From: an uncultured Hyphomicrobiales bacterium
GTDB taxonomy: Bacteria; Pseudomonadota; Alphaproteobacteria; Rhizobiales; Beijerinckiaceae
Length of the DNA: 64,000 nucleotides
Direction of reading: 5' to 3'
Assembly (NCBI GenBank): GCA_903902915.1
Contig: CAIUWR010000076.1
Coordinates: 1 to 64,000 of the forward strand
Made by a program: the position numbers and the translations under genes. Below the pieces are notes generated by a model. It was not told where the DNA came from. It was given only the letters and a program-made list of their open reading frames with translations, and made no database searches. Positions 15,793-33,533 of this stretch are shown in pieces; the stretch's first letter is position 1, and each line of letters opens with the position of its first letter.

Positions 15793-15824
15793 ATTGATTG
15801 ACCGAACCGTTCGGTTCAATCAAT
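15793..15824. promoter_or_regulatory. 32-bp TetR-type operator palindrome
   Basis: ATTGATTG-ACCGAA-CCG-TTCGGT-T-CAATCAAT is symmetric on both outer (8 bp) and inner (6 bp) arms, with a single-base offset between them. It ends 12 bases before the pump's ATG at 15837 and lies about 72 bases from the tetR start. Bound repressor would block the pump's translation-initiation region and promoter. Confidence 0.7.
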
Positions 15825-15836
15825 GGTGACTTTCAA

Positions 15837-17054
15837 ATGCTCGACAATGCAATTCCCCATCATCCTCTGGTGGACCCCCAGGACGCCGCCCATGCGAGCA
15901 TCTCGCCGATAGCCTCCTCCGGCGCATCTCCGCTTCCCTTGGCGACAGCGCCCAAGCCCAAGCTCAACCCGAAACGTTTCATCCTTCGTACCTGCGCCAT
16001 CGCCGCGCTCTGCGTAGGCGCGCATTACCTTTGGGACTGGTATGTGGTCGGTCGATTTGTCGTTTCCACCGACGACGCCTATGTCCGCGCAGATGTCGCC
16101 GTGATCGCAGCCAAGGTCTCGGGCTATGTGACCAGCGTCGCGGTGACCGACAACCAGATGGTCTCGCCCGGCCAGCTTCTGGCGACAATTGACGGTGGAG
16201 ACTACCGCCTCGCCGTGGATGCCGCCCAGAGCAAAATTGCCACGCAAGAGGCGACAATTGCGCGGATTCGCATGCAGGCGGACGCCCAGCGCGCGGTGAT
16301 CGAACAAACTGAGGCACAGTTGACATCCGTGCGCGCTGACGAACAGCGGGCCGCAAGCGAATTTGAACGTTCCACCCGCGTGATGCAAAATGGCGCCGGC
16401 ACTCAACAGCGACTTGACCTCGCCCTTGCGGACCGCGACCGAACGGTCGCTGCCGTCAGAAATGCCCAAGCCGCGCAATTGGCGGCGCAAGCAAATCTGG
16501 GCGTTCTCGAAGCCGAGCGGGTCGAGGCGGAACAAACACGCAATGAACTGATGATCGCGCTCGAAAAATCCAGGCGCGATCTGTCGTTCACTGAAATCCG
16601 AGCGCCCTTCGCAGGCGTCATTGGCAACCGGGCCATCGAAACCGGACAGTTGGTGCAAATCGGAACGAGACTTTTGTCGATCGTTCCTCTCGAAAGCGCT
16701 TACGTCGAGGCCAATTTCAAGGAAACACAGATCACGCGCATGAAACCCGGCCAGAAAGTCTCGATCCATATCGACGCCCTCCCAGGCCGCGCCATCGAAG
16801 GGACTCTCGAAAGCCTCTCACCGGCGTCAGGCGCACAATTCTCGTTATTGCCACCTGAAAATGCGACGGGCAATTTTACCAAGATCGTCCAGCGATTGCC
16901 GGTGCGGATCCACGTGCCGCTGGCGCTTGCGGCCGAAGGCGTGCTGCGTCCTGGCTTGTCAGTCACGGCGGACGTGGACACATGGCCCGCGGGCGAGCAG
17001 CGACCGACTTTGTCCAGCGTCCTCGGACTAGGTGCTGAACGGCCAGGCCTATGA
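15837..17054 (+). CDS. HlyD/EmrA-family membrane fusion protein of a multidrug pump
   Basis: 405 residues from the ATG at 15837; a TTG further upstream falls inside the operator and is unlikely. An N-terminal cytoplasmic tail is followed by one membrane helix (about 48-68), then DDAYVRADVAVIAAKVSGYV, the EmrA/HlyD biotinyl-lipoyl-like strand. Long coiled-coil hairpins rich in Ala, Gln and Arg fill about 125-245, and LSFTEIRAPFAGVIGNRAIETGQLV closes the lipoyl domain. It overlaps the MFS gene by ATGA. The pair exports lipophilic compounds across the envelope with an outer-membrane channel encoded elsewhere. Confidence 0.9.
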   Translation: MLDNAIPHHPLVDPQDAAHASISPIASSGASPLPLATAPKPKLNPKRFILRTCAIAALCVGAHYLWDWYVVGRFVVSTDDAYVRADVAVIAAKVSGYVTSVAVTDNQMVSPGQLLATIDGGDYRLAVDAAQSKIATQEATIARIRMQADAQRAVIEQTEAQLTSVRADEQRAASEFERSTRVMQNGAGTQQRLDLALADRDRTVAAVRNAQAAQLAAQANLGVLEAERVEAEQTRNELMIALEKSRRDLSFTEIRAPFAGVIGNRAIETGQLVQIGTRLLSIVPLESAYVEANFKETQITRMKPGQKVSIHIDALPGRAIEGTLESLSPASGAQFSLLPPENATGNFTKIVQRLPVRIHVPLALAAEGVLRPGLSVTADVDTWPAGEQRPTLSSVLGLGAERPGL

Positions 17055-27899: not shown

Positions 27900-30800
27900 T
27901 TAAAGGAGCGCTATCTGCTGATAAGCCGATAGCGCCTGTATCTGTTGTGGAGACAAAGCCACAACTTGTTTTTGCGTCCACATTGCAATTTGCGCCGTGG
28001 TGAGGGCCGCCTCCTGATCCGTGGAGAAAGAGGCGATCTGGGAGGTCGTCAAACTGGCGACTTGCGACGCCGTAAGGGCCGCGATGGAATCGGGCGTGAG
28101 CGCGGCGAATTGTGACGACGTCAGACGGCGCAGCGCTGCGGCCGAGAGGGACTGGATTTGACCCGTCGTCAGGCCACCGATCTCTGCTGTCGTCAGGGCG
28201 ACGACTTGCTGTGCGGTCAAGGCGCCGATCTGCGCGGAACTCAAGGCCGCGACCTCGTCCGATCCTAACGCCTGAATTTGCGATGTCGTAAGCCCCTTGA
28301 GGCCAGCAATCGAGAGCGCCCCGACCTGATCGGCGGCCAGAGCACCGATCTCTGACGTCGTCAAACTGCCCACTTCATTTTTAGTGAGGGCAGCGACTTG
28401 CGCCGTAGTGAGCGCCGCCTCCTGATCGGTGGAGAAAGCGGCGATCTGGGAGGTCGTCAAACTGGCGACTTGCGACGGCGTGAGGGCCGCGATGGAATCA
28501 GGCGTGAGCGCGGCGAATTGTGACGACGTCAGGCCGCGCAGCGCCGCAGCCGAGAGAGACTGGATTTGACCCGTCGTCAGGCCAGCGATCTCTGCCGTCG
28601 TCAAGGCGACGATTTGCGGCGCGGTCAAGGCGCCGATCTGCGCTGAGCTCAGGGCCGCGACCTCGTCCGCCCCCAACGCCTGAATTTGCGATGTCGTAAG
28701 CCCCTTGAGGCCCGCAACCGAAAGCGCCCCGACCTGATCATCAGCCAGAGCCCCGATCTCGGACGTCGTCAAACTGCCCACTTCCATCTTGGTGAGGGCC
28801 GCGACTTGCGCCGTGGTGAGGGCGGCTTCCTGGTCGGTGGAGAAGGAGGCGATCTGGGAGGTCGTCAAACTGGCGACTTGCGACGCCGTGAAGGCCGCGA
28901 TGGAATCGGGCGTGAGCGCCGCGAATTGTGACGACGTCAGGCCGCGCAGCGCGGCTGCTGAGAGTGACTGGATTTGCCCCGTCGTCAGGCCCGCGATCTC
29001 AGCTGTCGTCAAGGCGACGACTTGCGGCGCGGTCAAGGCGCCGATCTGCGCGGCGCTCAAGGCCGCGACCTCGTCCGCCCCAAACGCCTGAATTTGCGAT
29101 GTCGAAAGCCCCTTGAGGCCCGCAACCGAGAGCGCCCCGACCTGATCATCAGTCAGAGCCCCAATCTCTGACGTCGTCAAACTGCCCACTTCCATCTTGG
29201 TGAGGGCCGCCACTTGCGCCGTGGTGAGCGCGGCCTCCTGATCGGTGGAGAAAGCGGCGATCTGGGAGGTCGTCAAACTGGCCACTTGAGAGACCGTGAA
29301 GGCCGCGATGGAATCAGGCGTGAGGGCCGCGAATTGTGACGACGTCAGGCCGCGCAGCGCCGCAGCCGAGAGAGACTGGATTTGACCCGTCGTCAGGCCA
29401 GCGATCTCTGCCGTCGTCAAGGCGACGATTTGCGGCGCGGTCAAGGCGCCGATCTGCGCGGAGCTCAAGGCCGCAACTTCGTCCGCCCCTAACGCCTGAA
29501 TTTGCGATGTCGTCAGGCCCTTGAGGCCTGCAACCGAAAGCGCTCCAACCTGATCGGCGGTCAGAGCCCCGATCTCGGACGTCGCGAAGCTGCCGACTTC
29601 ATTTTTAGTGAGGGCCGCGACTTGCGCCGTGGTGAGGGCCGCTTCCTGGTCGGTGGAGAAAGCGGCGATCTGGGAGGTCGTCAAACTGGCCACTTGCGAG
29701 ACCGTGAAGGCCGCGATGGAATCGGGCGTGAGGGCCGCGAATTGTGACGATGTCAGACCACGCAGCGCCGCAGCCGAGAGGGACTGGATTTGCCCCGTCG
29801 TCAGGCCAGCGATCTCAGCTGTCGTCAAGGCGACGATTTGCGGCGCGGTCAAGGCGCCGATCTGCGCGGAACTCAAGGCCGCAACCTCGTCAGCGCCCAA
29901 CGCCTGAATTTGCGATGTCGTCAGGCCCTTGAGGCCCGCAATCGAGAGCGCCCCGACCTGATCGGCGGCCAGAGCACCTATCTCGGACGTCGTGAAGCTG
30001 CCCACTTCATTTTTAGTGAGGGCCGCGACTTGCGCCGTGGTGAGGGCCGCCTCCTGGTCCGTGGAGAAAGCGGCGATCTGGGACGTCGTCAAACTGGCGA
30101 CTTGCGACGCCGTGAAGGCCGCGATGGAATCGGGCGTGAGCGCGGCGAATTGTGACGACGTCAGACCGCGCAGCGCCGCCGCCGAGAGGGACTGGATTTG
30201 CCCCGTCGTCAGGCCAGCGATCTCTGCTGTCGTCAAGGCGACGATTTGCGGCGCGGTCAAGGCGCCGATCTGCGCTGAGCTCAAGGCCGCGACCTCGTCC
30301 GCCCCCAACGCCTGAATTTGCGATGTCGTCAGGCCCTTGAGGCCCGCAATCGAGAGCGCCCCGACCTGATCGGCGGCCAGAGCACCTATCTCGGACGTCG
30401 TGAAGCTGCCCACTTCCATCTTGGTGAGGGCCCCGACTTGCGCCGTGGTGAGGGCCGCTTCCTGGTCGGTGGAGAAGGAGGCGATCTGGGAGGTCGTCAA
30501 ACTGGCCACTTGCGAGACCGTGAAGGCCGCGATGGAATCGGGCGTGAGCGCCGCGAATTGTGACGACGTCAGACCACGAAGCGCAGCTGCCGAGAGGGAC
30601 TGGATTTGGCCCGTCGTCAGGCCGGCGATCTCTGCTGTCGTCAAGGCGACGATTTGCGGCGCGGTCAATGCGCCGATCTGCGCGGAGCTCAGGGCCGCAA
30701 CCTCGTCCGCCCCTAAAGCCTGAATTTGCGAAGTCGTAAGCCCCTTGAGGCCCGCAACCGAAAGCGCCCCGACTTGATCGGCGGTCAGAGCCCCGATCTC

Positions 30801-31097
30801 GGACGTCGTCAAACTGCCCACTTCAATCTTGGTGAGGGCCGCGACTTGCGCCGTGGTGAGCGCGGCCTCTTGGTCTGACGACAATGAGGCGATCTGCGCC
30901 GTGCTCAAGGTGCTGATTTGCGTGGTCGTGAGCAGAGCAATCGCATCCGCCAACACGGAAGCGAACTGTTCCGTCGTGAAGCTACTAAGTGAGGTCGCCC
31001 CACTCAAAGCGCCCGAATGTGAATTTGTAACGGAAGAAACAGTCACGACGGAACCCTTCAGGCGGACTTGGAATGACCCTAGTCCGTCGCGCAGCAT
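27900..31097 (-). CDS. Giant octapeptide-repeat protein (LTxxQIxA repeats)
   Basis: 1065 residues, almost entirely eight-residue units of the form L-[TS]-x-x-[QE]-[IVL]-x-[AGS]. Seventeen successive octads make a 136-residue block, and seven blocks follow one another with few substitutions. A unique N-terminus of about 45 residues and a divergent C-terminal cap (MWTQKQVVALSPQQIQ) flank them. No signal peptide or anchor is visible from the ATG at 31097, whose ribosome site is weak. Thr/Ser followed three residues later by Gln/Glu is a helix capping box, so each octad may be a short helix in a superhelical solenoid; beta-solenoid is the alternative. Similar repeats occur in proteins loosely labelled surface or haem-utilisation proteins. 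It lies behind an autotransporter-like gene on the same strand. Confidence 0.75.
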   Translation of the reverse strand: MLRDGLGSFQVRLKGSVVTVSSVTNSHSGALSGATSLSSFTTEQFASVLADAIALLTTTQISTLSTAQIASLSSDQEAALTTAQVAALTKIEVGSLTTSEIGALTADQVGALSVAGLKGLTTSQIQALGADEVAALSSAQIGALTAPQIVALTTAEIAGLTTGQIQSLSAAALRGLTSSQFAALTPDSIAAFTVSQVASLTTSQIASFSTDQEAALTTAQVGALTKMEVGSFTTSEIGALAADQVGALSIAGLKGLTTSQIQALGADEVAALSSAQIGALTAPQIVALTTAEIAGLTTGQIQSLSAAALRGLTSSQFAALTPDSIAAFTASQVASLTTSQIAAFSTDQEAALTTAQVAALTKNEVGSFTTSEIGALAADQVGALSIAGLKGLTTSQIQALGADEVAALSSAQIGALTAPQIVALTTAEIAGLTTGQIQSLSAAALRGLTSSQFAALTPDSIAAFTVSQVASLTTSQIAAFSTDQEAALTTAQVAALTKNEVGSFATSEIGALTADQVGALSVAGLKGLTTSQIQALGADEVAALSSAQIGALTAPQIVALTTAEIAGLTTGQIQSLSAAALRGLTSSQFAALTPDSIAAFTVSQVASLTTSQIAAFSTDQEAALTTAQVAALTKMEVGSLTTSEIGALTDDQVGALSVAGLKGLSTSQIQAFGADEVAALSAAQIGALTAPQVVALTTAEIAGLTTGQIQSLSAAALRGLTSSQFAALTPDSIAAFTASQVASLTTSQIASFSTDQEAALTTAQVAALTKMEVGSLTTSEIGALADDQVGALSVAGLKGLTTSQIQALGADEVAALSSAQIGALTAPQIVALTTAEIAGLTTGQIQSLSAAALRGLTSSQFAALTPDSIAALTPSQVASLTTSQIAAFSTDQEAALTTAQVAALTKNEVGSLTTSEIGALAADQVGALSIAGLKGLTTSQIQALGSDEVAALSSAQIGALTAQQVVALTTAEIGGLTTGQIQSLSAAALRRLTSSQFAALTPDSIAALTASQVASLTTSQIASFSTDQEAALTTAQIAMWTQKQVVALSPQQIQALSAYQQIALL
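28015..30870 (-). repeat. Seven tandem copies of a 408-bp coding repeat
   Basis: A landmark 17-mer that starts tgaatttgcgatgtcgt (with one substitution in one copy) recurs at 28273, 28681, 29089, 29497, 29905, 30313 and 30721, exactly 408 bp apart each time. 408 bp equals 136 codons, or 17 octads. Copies differ by scattered substitutions but no length changes, so the frame and octad register are kept. This points to unequal crossover with purifying selection on length. Confidence 0.9.
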
Positions 31098-31380: not shown

Positions 31381-32418
31381 TTAAAATCTGACGGTCAGGC
31401 TCAGCTCGCCGCTATTGGAGTTTCTTGTTGACGAGCGAACGAAGGACGCCTTCGCGCCCAGCTCGACGGCATTATCTAGCCTGCCTCGCAAACCAAGATC
31501 GTAACGGGTCAGGTTCGCCGCGGGCGAGATGCCGTCAACCCGCCAATAGTAACCCGGCGCCGCAAGCGACGACGCAATCAAGCTTCGCTGCAAGCTCGCT
31601 TCGTGCGACCAGCTGACCTTCGCCATGGGGCTGATCTGGTAGCCAGCCACTTCGAATAACGAATCCAGTTGAATGCCCGAAGACGTGAGGCGCGACATCT
31701 GTCGCATCGTTTCGAAGCGGTTTCCATATACCGTATTGTCTTCATTGTAGGCGGGCTGGCTCAACTCGTCGATTTGCGCGGCGACGAAAGGAGTGATCCC
31801 GAGGAACCCAAGTTGTCGACGCATGCCGACCTCACTCTTGCCTCCAAGCGCTGTAGTGTCATGTGACGCGGCGACCATGTTCCCTAAAGCGTAGCGTGTG
31901 TAGTCATTGACGAAAGCGCCTACTGAAACGGCGCCCTTCAAGTAGAGGCCGACGTCAGAGGTCACGGCGCCATAAGCGGCGAAATTGGCGCCGGTCACGG
32001 AGCCCGATGTCCAGCGGTCAGCCACATCGAAGTTCGACGAGCCGATCCCGGCCGCCAAGCCTAGCATCAGATAAGGCTGCACAAGCTTCTCATATCCGCC
32101 CGTTAGATTATAGGCGCCGGCGAAGCTGGAAGCAGAATTGCTGTTGCCGTCCTGCCAGACATTCAGGCGCGAGGCCGAAGCCCACACGCGTTCAAGCTTC
32201 TTGCACTCCACGCGCGTCGCTTCATAGGGTTCACGTGAGCAGTTCGCCAACGAGTCCGTATCATTCAGAACCGCGTCGAAGAATTGAGACCGCATGTCGA
32301 ATGTCGCTTGCTGGGTCGCTGTCGTTCCCTCGCCAGTCAATGAATCGTAGGCCTTCTTCAGATCGTCGCAGTTGGAGATTTGAAACAGCTGATTGGCGAT
32401 GATCTGGTAATTCGGCAC
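31381..32418 (-). CDS. Autotransporter beta-barrel domain (downstream piece of a frameshifted gene)
   Basis: The open frame gives 345 residues from a GTG at 32418, but protein-like sequence continues upstream in this frame to about 32464 (NRLNLGNTINDIQTDG). Residues about 90-345 are alternating amphipathic strands such as GLAAGIGSSNFDV and LYLKGAVSVGAFVNDY, ending SGELSLTVRF; a terminal Phe is typical of barrels recognised by the BAM complex. The N-terminal 80 residues, with two Cys-containing segments, would be the linker. The passenger part lies upstream in another frame. As written, this piece has no signal peptide and could not reach the outer membrane alone. Confidence 0.7.
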   Translation of the reverse strand: MPNYQIIANQLFQISNCDDLKKAYDSLTGEGTTATQQATFDMRSQFFDAVLNDTDSLANCSREPYEATRVECKKLERVWASASRLNVWQDGNSNSASSFAGAYNLTGGYEKLVQPYLMLGLAAGIGSSNFDVADRWTSGSVTGANFAAYGAVTSDVGLYLKGAVSVGAFVNDYTRYALGNMVAASHDTTALGGKSEVGMRRQLGFLGITPFVAAQIDELSQPAYNEDNTVYGNRFETMRQMSRLTSSGIQLDSLFEVAGYQISPMAKVSWSHEASLQRSLIASSLAAPGYYWRVDGISPAANLTRYDLGLRGRLDNAVELGAKASFVRSSTRNSNSGELSLTVRF

Positions 32419-33533
32419 GCCATCTGTCTGGATGTCGTTGATGGTGTTGCCCAGGTTGAGCCGGTTATGCCAGCGCCGCCCGCGCCGCCATATCCACCGA
32501 TGCCGCCGATCCCCGCGTCACCCCCTTGGCCACCGGTCGAACGCAAAGAAAACGCCACGACGCCGTTGCCGGGTACGTTGATGGACGAAGCATTGATGTT
32601 CATTGAAACAGGAACGCCACCGACGCCCGCCAGTCCATTGACGCCGGACGGAACAAGACCGCTCACCTGACTGGTGGTCAATGTCGAAGAACCTGTCGTG
32701 AGAAGGTTCACCGAAAGTCCGCCAACCGTCACCACATTGGTGGGCGACGGCGTTTGAGGGGCGCCGTTTATCGTGTAGATCGCATCCTGCGAGGTCGCCC
32801 CGAGCGGGGTGTAGGTCACGCCGTTGTAGGTTGTCGCCGCAGGCGGCATGAAGGTAAGACCCGTGACACCGACGGGGCCAGCGAGAAGCGCGCCGCTCCC
32901 ATCACGCGCCTGCGTGACCAGCGTAAAATCGTGGCCAGAGCCTGACGGACCGACAACCGTCAGCACGGGATCGCTGCCGACTCGCGTGCTGATCGTTGCG
33001 GTAAATCCAGTCTGCGTGTTGATCGCATCCCTGACGTCTGCAAGCGTCTTGCCCGCCGGAATGTTCAGAACGGTGGCGCTTCCCCCCTGCGGCGTCAGAA
33101 TGACGTCGAACGCATTGCCCCCGTTCAACGCCTGACCTGCGGTTGGACTCGCGCTTAGCTGCATTGCGCTGGCGAGTTGGGTCACTGTGATCGGATAGGC
33201 GCCATTCGTGGGCGTCGTACCCACGACCTGACTGGCGCTCAACACGGCGTTATTGCTGTTGGTGATGCTTAGCGCCGCGGAACCACCCAAGGCGTCTTGG
33301 CCGTTCGAGCCATTATAGGTGGAGTACGAGCCGAAACTGTATATGGCGGCGCAAGCGGCGCCCCAGGACATCTGGTTGCAGTTATATCCAGCGGAACTGC
33401 CCTGCGCTCCGGCAGGCCCGGTTCCCGGCGAGCCCGTCCTGGGGGCGGCTGTCGGCGTCGTTGCGACCTGAATTGTCGGCGTCGAATAGCTGGGATCCGT
33501 GGCGAATGCAGGCTGGGCGAACGCAGCCGTCAA
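32358..33533 (-). CDS. Autotransporter passenger domain (upstream piece of a frameshifted gene)
   Basis: 391 codons from a TTG at 33533; meaningful sequence stops near 32465, after which the frame runs into unrelated residues. The frame is open upstream to 33572 and there encodes a classic signal core (AATLAVLLTAAFAQPAFA), but the only in-frame ATG (33579-33581) is followed by GGA and TAA. The passenger includes TLADVRDAINTQTGFTATI, reminiscent of flagellar-cap/hook-associated folds, and a Gly-rich tail before the break. It also holds one octad, STLTTSQVSGL, like those of the repeat protein downstream. A one-base loss or two-base gain near 32464-32475 would restore one protein of about 710 residues. 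Confidence 0.65.
   Translation of the reverse strand: MTAAFAQPAFATDPSYSTPTIQVATTPTAAPRTGSPGTGPAGAQGSSAGYNCNQMSWGAACAAIYSFGSYSTYNGSNGQDALGGSAALSITNSNNAVLSASQVVGTTPTNGAYPITVTQLASAMQLSASPTAGQALNGGNAFDVILTPQGGSATVLNIPAGKTLADVRDAINTQTGFTATISTRVGSDPVLTVVGPSGSGHDFTLVTQARDGSGALLAGPVGVTGLTFMPPAATTYNGVTYTPLGATSQDAIYTINGAPQTPSPTNVVTVGGLSVNLLTTGSSTLTTSQVSGLVPSGVNGLAGVGGVPVSMNINASSINVPGNGVVAFSLRSTGGQGGDAGIGGIGGYGGAGGAGITGSTWATPSTTSRQMACRITRSSPISCFKSPTATI

Follow-up and report, generated by a model that had tools for sequence, protein, structure and literature searches.

Several repeat architectures are well described. Armadillo repeats are made of two or three long helices in about 42 residues, leucine-rich repeats carry a beta strand in every repeat, TAL effector repeats are 33-35 residues long, and the octamer repeat of ice-nucleation proteins forms a beta-solenoid. 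Mesothelin, a human surface glycoprotein, contains short helices. GT41-type enzymes are known with exported or flagellar substrates, HMW1C with HMW1 and FlmG with flagellin. Here we describe a gene on the minus strand (27900-31097) of a 64,000-nucleotide stretch of DNA, referred to as the window, from an uncultured Hyphomicrobiales bacterium (contig CAIUWR010000076.1, assembly GCA_903902915.1). Its product is a clear member of Pfam family PF20080, the ALTTAQ repeat (E 4.2e-196, 634.8 bits versus a cut-off of 26.4, 41 stretches), so that it already falls within a named family, the entry for which gave a repeat name and no function in what was shown.

Our analysis points to a rigid, exported, length-adjustable rod that is O-glycosylated in part of the family by GT41 enzymes, a reading to which we give about an even chance. 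A literature search of titles and the beginnings of abstracts found no description of the ALTTAQ repeat, of a superhelical period, or of linkage to GT41 or type I secretion system (T1SS) genes. Seven papers containing the string PF20080 bear titles on other subjects. Nothing in NCBIfam passed the cut-off for the window protein. Side matches over the Pfam cut-off (CAAP1, LRR_EndoS, NCBP3 and DIP2311-like_C) are taken as compositional; no single stretch passes by itself, except two in DIP2311-like_C.

Architecture of the repeat array

The open reading frame (ORF) at 27900-31097 comprises 1065 codons counted from the ATG at 31097, which is the protein length first reported. Translation probably starts at the GTG at 31046 and yields 1048 aa, because this codon has an AAGGG Shine-Dalgarno-like site 7 nt upstream and the N-terminus read from it, MTVSSVTNSHS, resembles those of relatives (MTVSPVNSSSN, MVAISSVTNSS and MSITSVNNSNN). 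No Shine-Dalgarno-like site was seen upstream of the ATG, and promoter and terminator scans gave chance-level results only.

The seven 408-bp repeats of 17 octads noted in the initial annotation are borne out by Tandem Repeats Finder, which on the window returned 27990-30896 with a period of 408, 7.1 copies, 91% matches and 0% indels, and by in-frame dissection. In the latter, octads begin at residue 56 of the ATG-started ORF, and seven 17-octad units start at 30932, 30524, 30116, 29708, 29300, 28892 and 28484, with no gaps between them. Unit 7 is followed by 58 aa, consisting of 7 octads and LL, which brings the array to 126 full octads. The features of the gene, with units placed by in-frame dissection, are:

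27900-31046, minus strand: ALTTAQ-repeat gene, with a likely coding sequence of 1048 aa that runs from GTG 31046 to the stop at 27900-27902 (from the ORF, Shine-Dalgarno-like site, N-terminus and PF20080 match)
30933-31046, minus strand: first 38 residues of the protein, modelled with low confidence at full length and without a Sec signal peptide by eye
30525-30932, minus strand: 408-bp unit 1, 17 octads, the most divergent (86.5-89% identity to other units)
30117-30524, minus strand: 408-bp unit 2
29709-30116, minus strand: 408-bp unit 3
29301-29708, minus strand: 408-bp unit 4
28893-29300, minus strand: 408-bp unit 5
28485-28892, minus strand: 408-bp unit 6
28077-28484, minus strand: 408-bp unit 7
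27903-28076, minus strand: C-terminal 7 extra octads and LL end, last 24 residues low confidence in the full-length model

The regularity of this ORF at the level of the octad and of the 408-bp unit is far above chance. Self-identity of the protein is 0.88 at a lag of 136 residues, 0.33 at lag 8 and 0.36 at lag 16, versus 0.03-0.12 at the remaining lags from 4 to 19. Position 1 of the octad is L, F or W in 126 of 126 cases, position 2 is T or S in 114 and position 5 is Q or E in 105. These values agree with the two-level order originally read from the sequence, in which octads of the form L-[TS]-x-x-[QE]-[IVL]-x-A are arranged in 136-residue blocks.

Pairwise DNA identity among the seven units is 86.5-94.4%, with 5.6-13.5% of bases differing. 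The ratio of nonsynonymous to synonymous divergence (dN/dS) ranges from 0.05 to 0.21 over the 21 pairs and is about 0.13, with a mean dS of 0.30 and a mean dN of 0.040. Since synonymous divergence between units is about 8 times the nonsynonymous, the pattern indicates a real translated protein under purifying selection.

Predicted fold and comparison with known solenoids

A block of two units (272 aa) was modelled with AlphaFold2, using an alignment with other segments of the same protein and with a relative, L007 (repeat loci and their proteins carry L numbers, genomes G numbers). The model has a mean predicted local distance difference test score (pLDDT) of 96.0 and a predicted template modelling score (pTM) of 0.85, and is made up of 34 short helices (5-6 residues), each corresponding to an octad, with no strand. 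The T or S at position 2 immediately precedes each helix and the Q or E at position 5 follows three residues on, which is the arrangement of a capping box. Full-length runs were made without an alignment and gave five models with mean pLDDT from 31.8 to 76.3. The best of these (mean 76.3, pTM 0.35) has short helices over most of the array and no strand, with pLDDT of 60-87 in blocks of ten and low confidence at residues 1-19, 37-39, 45-51 and 1025-1048. It also shows one longer helix per unit around FSTDQEAA, which the aligned block model does not have. This sequence is octad 3 of every unit (LSSDQEAA in unit 1), in which Glu replaces Ile or Val at position 6.

Both predictions show a regular fold, the full-length one less confidently, and uphold the solenoid of very short helices with a capping box that had been proposed for this protein. 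We have good confidence that the window protein is a rigid, extended solenoid or rod. In the confident block model each octad, L-T/S-x-x-Q/E-I/V/L-x-A, forms one 5-6-residue helix with its capping box, and Leu1 and Ile/Val6 are taken as the core because these positions are constant.

The closest solved sequence is HeliScrew4 (PDB 9zem; phmmer 4.7e-19, profile search 1.2e-28), presumably a designed protein, judging by its name. Its octad, L-T/S-P-E/D-Q/K-I/V/F-A-A, is like that of the window protein, but its chain of 120 residues is too short for the 17-octad order. Structural comparison by VIA-align, which was confined to the ranking given by Foldseek in a library reaching to April 2026 and among whose rows 9zem was absent, returned mainly armadillo-type chains and a few mesothelin chains with middling Z scores (best 8.0), which the tool's notes describe as common for such models. 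Armadillo- and importin-type alpha-solenoids and designed ARM proteins superpose on the model with a root mean square deviation of mostly 6-9 A and 6-14% identity. We rejected an armadillo solenoid, as the model has one 5-6-residue helix per 8 residues and no Arm family appears in the Pfam list up to E 10. A leucine-rich repeat was likewise rejected, since neither AlphaFold2 model contains a strand despite matches to leucine patterns in the Pfam, sequence and profile searches. The ice-nucleation family, suggested by the record name of a Cereibacter relative, is not found in Pfam up to E 10 and the models are all-helical, while TAL effector repeats do not fit the window periods of 8 and 136 and have no family in the Pfam list. 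The likeness to mesothelin is weak, with many leucine-rich proteins outscoring it in the profile search, and we treat it as a lead only.

A candidate superhelical period

The 17-octad unit is not peculiar to the window gene, being a leading period in 8 of 18 relatives examined. Self-similarity is led by 136 residues in L029, L030, L031, L034, L035, L039 and L007, by 272 and then 136 residues in L041, and by 24 octads in L036 and L038. The window protein and L029-L031 also have peaks at 7, 10, 24, 27, 34, 41, 44, 51 or 58 octads, near multiples of 3.4, and lags of 5, 12, 14, 20 and 25 also occur in some of the peak lists.

Octads at lags 1-16 were then compared in 54 family proteins, with near-duplicates removed to avoid long duplications. 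An excess of octad identity was found at lag 10 in 53 of the 54 proteins, at lag 14 in 42 and at lag 7 in 39, and was rare at lags 5, 9, 11 and 13 (5, 9, 5 and 10 proteins, respectively). The best single period lay between 3.2 and 3.6 in 27 proteins; over 30 shuffles this happened for 4.3 proteins on average and for 9 at most. Other best periods were 2.0-2.1 (11 proteins), 2.4-2.64 (11, mostly the aliased second harmonic) and near 8.6-8.8 (5). The period signal is lowest at octad positions 1 and 6 and highest at 5, 7 and 8. For a set of 45 ORFs, several of them from one locus and one (L072, 720 aa) probably an antisense frame, the peak within the 3.2-3.6 band was unmatched by any of 200 shuffles in 35, with a mean of 3.41, and the overall maximum fell within the band in only 22. 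Apart from this, a strong exact two-octad period, with alternating octads, is seen in L065, L068, L072, L073 and others.

The pattern of lags is compatible with about 3.4 octads per superhelical turn, in which case 17 octads would make five turns. Successive octads would turn by about 106 degrees, with about 27 residues to the turn, as judged from the periodicity across the family. With such a pitch, duplication would preserve the phase for units of 17 octads, equal to five turns, as well as for units of 24, equal to seven. This likely 3.4-octad period appears to be new.

Distribution of the family

Among close relatives, PF20080 is present in 15 of 61 genomes. A stricter protein search over 387 genomes of the class found relatives in 7, and over 397 of the phylum in 20, the window's own genome being counted in each case. 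There are 59 plasmid records with ALTTAQ relatives, mostly from Rhizobium, Shinella and Cereibacter; no ALTTAQ relative was found in viral contigs or phage records. The open frames of relatives span lengths of about 700 to over 5,000 aa, in keeping with the variable length foreseen in the initial annotation, and their record names include hypothetical, 'heme utilization', 'large exoprotein' and 'ICE nucleation'. One repeat protein from the same genus (L043, 3895-7212, minus strand) has a C-terminal metalloprotease domain of the NF038122 family, which shows that ALTTAQ arrays can carry enzymes.

Linkage to GT41, sugar and type I secretion genes

Fifty repeat loci were examined, of which five (L060 and L076-L079) had no ORF passing the octad test and were excluded, leaving 45. 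As no fetched stretch exceeded 20 kb and some contigs stop next to the gene, part of the linkage may have escaped notice. In a label-free clustering of neighbours within 8 kb, GT41, the OGT/SPINDLY-like family, was found in more genera than any other neighbour (8 of 13) and at 17 of the 45 loci, and HlyD at 7 loci in 3 genera. By profile alone GT41 was called at 15 loci, and Pfam confirmed PF13844 at 8 (L029, L031, L036, L038, L047, L061, L062 and L070). Adjacency within about 6 kb was found in 17 of 40 repeat-bearing genomes versus 3.2 expected (P about 1e-9), with unlisted genomes counted as non-adjacent and gene counts entered by hand. In the class and phylum samples only, it was found in 10 of 25 versus 2.2 expected (P about 1e-5). 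An earlier test gave 17 of 21 genomes and P 6e-22, from a sample in which 22 of the 40 genomes had been picked, several for a GT41 already seen, and G737, which has no GT41, had been dropped; its gene counts were also entered by hand and are approximate for G476, G526 and G498.

On plasmids, GT41 lies beside the repeat gene at 9 of 17 loci and in 8 of 16 organisms, as called with our own profile rather than with Pfam. These 17 loci were fetched from the 59 records, the first eight being among the best-scoring and the rest about one per genus, and L091, a near-copy of L088, was counted with it as a single organism. GT41 is directly downstream on the same strand at L029, L031, L036, L038, L047, L061, L063, L084, L085, L087 and L095. 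Near several loci there are sugar genes, including rmlB- and rmlC-like genes, glf, GT2, rfbABCD, gmd and UDP-glucuronate decarboxylase. A plasmid of the laboratory strain Cereibacter sphaeroides 2.4.1 carries the repeat gene, an annotated OGT, HlyD, an ATP-binding cassette (ABC) exporter and rfbABCD (rmlABCD) within about 18 kb.

T1SS genes adjoin the repeat gene at 7 of the 45 genome loci (L036, L055, L056, L067, L069, L070 and L075) and in 4 of the 16 plasmid organisms (two Pseudomonas, Cereibacter and Pseudoroseomonas), and GT41 is present at all 11 of these loci. At the three loci that were scanned, HlyD passed the NCBIfam cut-off, and the ABC proteins best matched HlyB, below its cut-off. 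T1SS-like C-terminal domains suspected by eye in L007 and L061 had no supporting family match.

The composition of the octad also follows this linkage. The median number of Ser or Thr per octad at positions 3 and 4 is 1.68 in T1SS-linked proteins (n=11), 1.04 in those with GT41 only (n=14) and 0.87 in unlinked proteins (n=33), with p = 1.4e-4 for linked versus unlinked. For this comparison proteins of fewer than 24 octads were dropped, L064 was grouped as linked by sequence clustering alone, L065 is confirmed as linked, and L075 was counted as GT41-linked with its GT41 just past the fetched stretch. Beside the L065 repeat gene lies a 3781-aa ORF (L083, 1254-12596, minus strand) with several GT41 matches in a row. 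The plasmid loci L084 (Rhodovastum) and L095 (Pseudorhizobium), which contain both repeat gene and GT41, lie near flagellar genes.

The association with GT41 is strong, and the linkage of the family to these OGT-like enzymes and in part to T1SS looks new. The ALTTAQ loci have in common with HMW1C/HMW1 and FlmG/flagellin that a GT41-type enzyme is paired with what would be an exported substrate, whereas the substrates and secretion routes differ, and no link of these systems to ALTTAQ was found in the literature searched.

The window gene in its own genome

Around the window gene lie genes for a Rieske oxygenase and an MmgE/PrpD protein, an autotransporter gene in two pieces and DNA polymerase genes. 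The autotransporter gene (31381-33533, minus strand) seems to be split over two overlapping frames, by a frameshift or a sequencing error; a Flagellin_IN motif is in the N-terminal part at 32361-33533 and the beta-barrel at 31384-32418 (PF03797, E 8.5e-32). An ORF at 15798-17054 on the plus strand has an HlyD-like stretch (16428-16982), 11 kb away and far below the type I cut-off (53.4 vs 208.65 bits), and is not taken as a T1SS gene. The window protein has no Sec-type N-terminus by eye, and its C-terminal end is hydrophobic, as in several T1SS-linked relatives.

Another ALTTAQ gene of this genome, coding for 1970 aa, lies on contig C49; directly at its end is the genome's only GT41, followed by GT2. 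On contig C7 (L082, 2627-11866) there are a T1SS adaptor (395.9 bits, over the cut-off) and an ABC protein, which adjoin rmlABCD-like genes and an RgpF-like gene. Five relatives have an orthologue of the Rieske gene with 89-93% identity, which in one case is partial. In the three in which the repeat-gene side of Rieske is visible (G015, G032 and G033; it is off the contig in G027 and G036) there is no repeat ORF, and this absence suggests that the window gene was gained locally or lost in the three relatives.

Proposed model and alternatives

We propose that ALTTAQ proteins are length-adjustable extracellular rods. Gene neighbourhoods and composition suggest that a subset would be exported by the adjacent T1SS and O-glycosylated on Thr or Ser at octad positions 3 and 4 by the adjacent GT41, with sugars that may be supplied through nearby rml, glf or gmd genes. 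The window protein is probably an exported rod as well, for attachment or a cell-surface structure, and would be glycosylated in trans if at all. We have moderate confidence in its exported location and low confidence in its own glycosylation, because it lacks such neighbours and its Thr/Ser content is at the unlinked level. The surface or scaffold role suggested in the initial annotation therefore gains support for part of the family, through the T1SS and GT41 neighbours, and not directly for the window gene. A wider reading, which we offer tentatively and with more doubt, is that ALTTAQ proteins are a widespread and undescribed class of giant rods on the bacterial surface. Their eight-residue helices would be wound into a superhelix with 3.4 of them to the turn; in the cytoplasm OGT-family enzymes would densely O-glycosylate many of the proteins, and dedicated type I systems would export them. 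They would be a bacterial counterpart to mucin-like glycoprotein rods, with the window gene in a lightly glycosylated or unglycosylated branch.

Several observations weigh against these proposals. With regard to the window gene, there is no GT41 or T1SS gene beside it, its Thr/Ser value at positions 3 and 4 is 0.81, that of the unlinked group, and no known secretion signal was recognised in the protein. For the linkage, generic ABC ATPases occur at 18 of the 45 loci, one above GT41, but in fewer genera (7). Five of 15 repeat-bearing relatives are without any GT41, and association by presence or absence is weak (GT41 in 10 of 15 versus 16 of 46 genomes, Fisher p 0.039). HlyD and ABC genes also lie beside the weak relative L076 (27% identity), whose 19.9 kb give no GT41 hit. 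T1SS adaptors over the cut-off are common to 23 of the 26 genomes checked and thus unspecific as a feature of a genome, and we do not count the T1SS of the window's own genome as evidence for export of this protein. As to the period, in 8 of 18 relatives the leading lag is neither 17 nor 24 octads, the consensus unit of the window protein does not mark 3.4 out from other periods (permutation p 0.23, or 0.02 when the aliased harmonic is included), and the mean lag profile favours a period of 2.0 (0.66) slightly over 3.42 (0.60).

The window subgroup could instead be a separate, unglycosylated branch of rods serving as an intracellular or periplasmic scaffold or spacer, for which the GT41/T1SS branch is uninformative. 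The missing neighbours of the window gene and the five relatives without GT41 would fit this, as would the 33 of 58 proteins that are unlinked (the contig breaks off near the gene for some of them) and the annotated Shinella, Thioclava, Rhizobium rhizoryzae and Roseateles loci, which have no GT41 beside the gene. We nevertheless regard it as somewhat unlikely, given that the octad is the same and the N-terminus similar to those of linked members, and that in the genome itself a paralogue is linked to GT41 and a T1SS adjoins rhamnose genes. The linkage could also come about if GT41 and ALTTAQ genes ride together on polysaccharide or flagellar islands, with the enzyme modifying flagellin or another protein. 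Flagellar genes near the Rhodovastum and Pseudorhizobium loci and the polysaccharide or sugar genes near several others speak for such islands; GT41 is directly downstream on the same strand at the 11 loci named above, flagellar genes occur in only 2 of 14 annotated plasmid regions, and Thr/Ser enrichment at positions 3-4 accompanies linkage, all of which makes this explanation quite improbable.

The similarities at 7, 10, 14, 17 and 24 octads might instead be relics of old duplications of 7- and 10-octad blocks and not of a superhelix. This is attractive in that 7 and 10 add up to 17, the window protein and others plainly show internal duplication, the window unit by itself does not single out 3.4, and lags 5, 12 and 20 are also among its best. 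Duplication alone is an unlikely account of the excess at lag 10 in nearly every protein together with the deficit at lags 5, 9, 11 and 13 in most, of an in-band peak near 3.4 common to proteins with 17- and 24-octad units, and of a signal that is lowest at octad positions 1 and 6. An error of assembly, either in the copy number or in the array itself, is very improbable. The genome is a draft in 102 contigs and 408-bp repeats of high identity are difficult for short reads, but the seven copies are all distinct, which argues against a single copy multiplied by assembly, and their substitutions are of the coding type. The reading frame is moreover unbroken across the array, and plasmid records, several of them labelled complete, again contain relatives with 136-residue units in register.

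Significance

PF20080 is a named repeat with no function described in the literature searched. Its linkage to OGT-like and sugar-nucleotide genes, and partly to type I exporters, leads to the hypothesis that its members are glycosylated, exported, length-adjustable rods, which is addressable in Cereibacter sphaeroides 2.4.1, where one plasmid holds the repeat, OGT, export and sugar genes. Were the 3.4-octad period real, it would account for the tendency of duplications towards 17- or 24-octad units and would offer protein design a simple rule. Provided that GT41 enzymes modify ALTTAQ proteins, these loci would provide natural bacterial OGT-substrate pairs.

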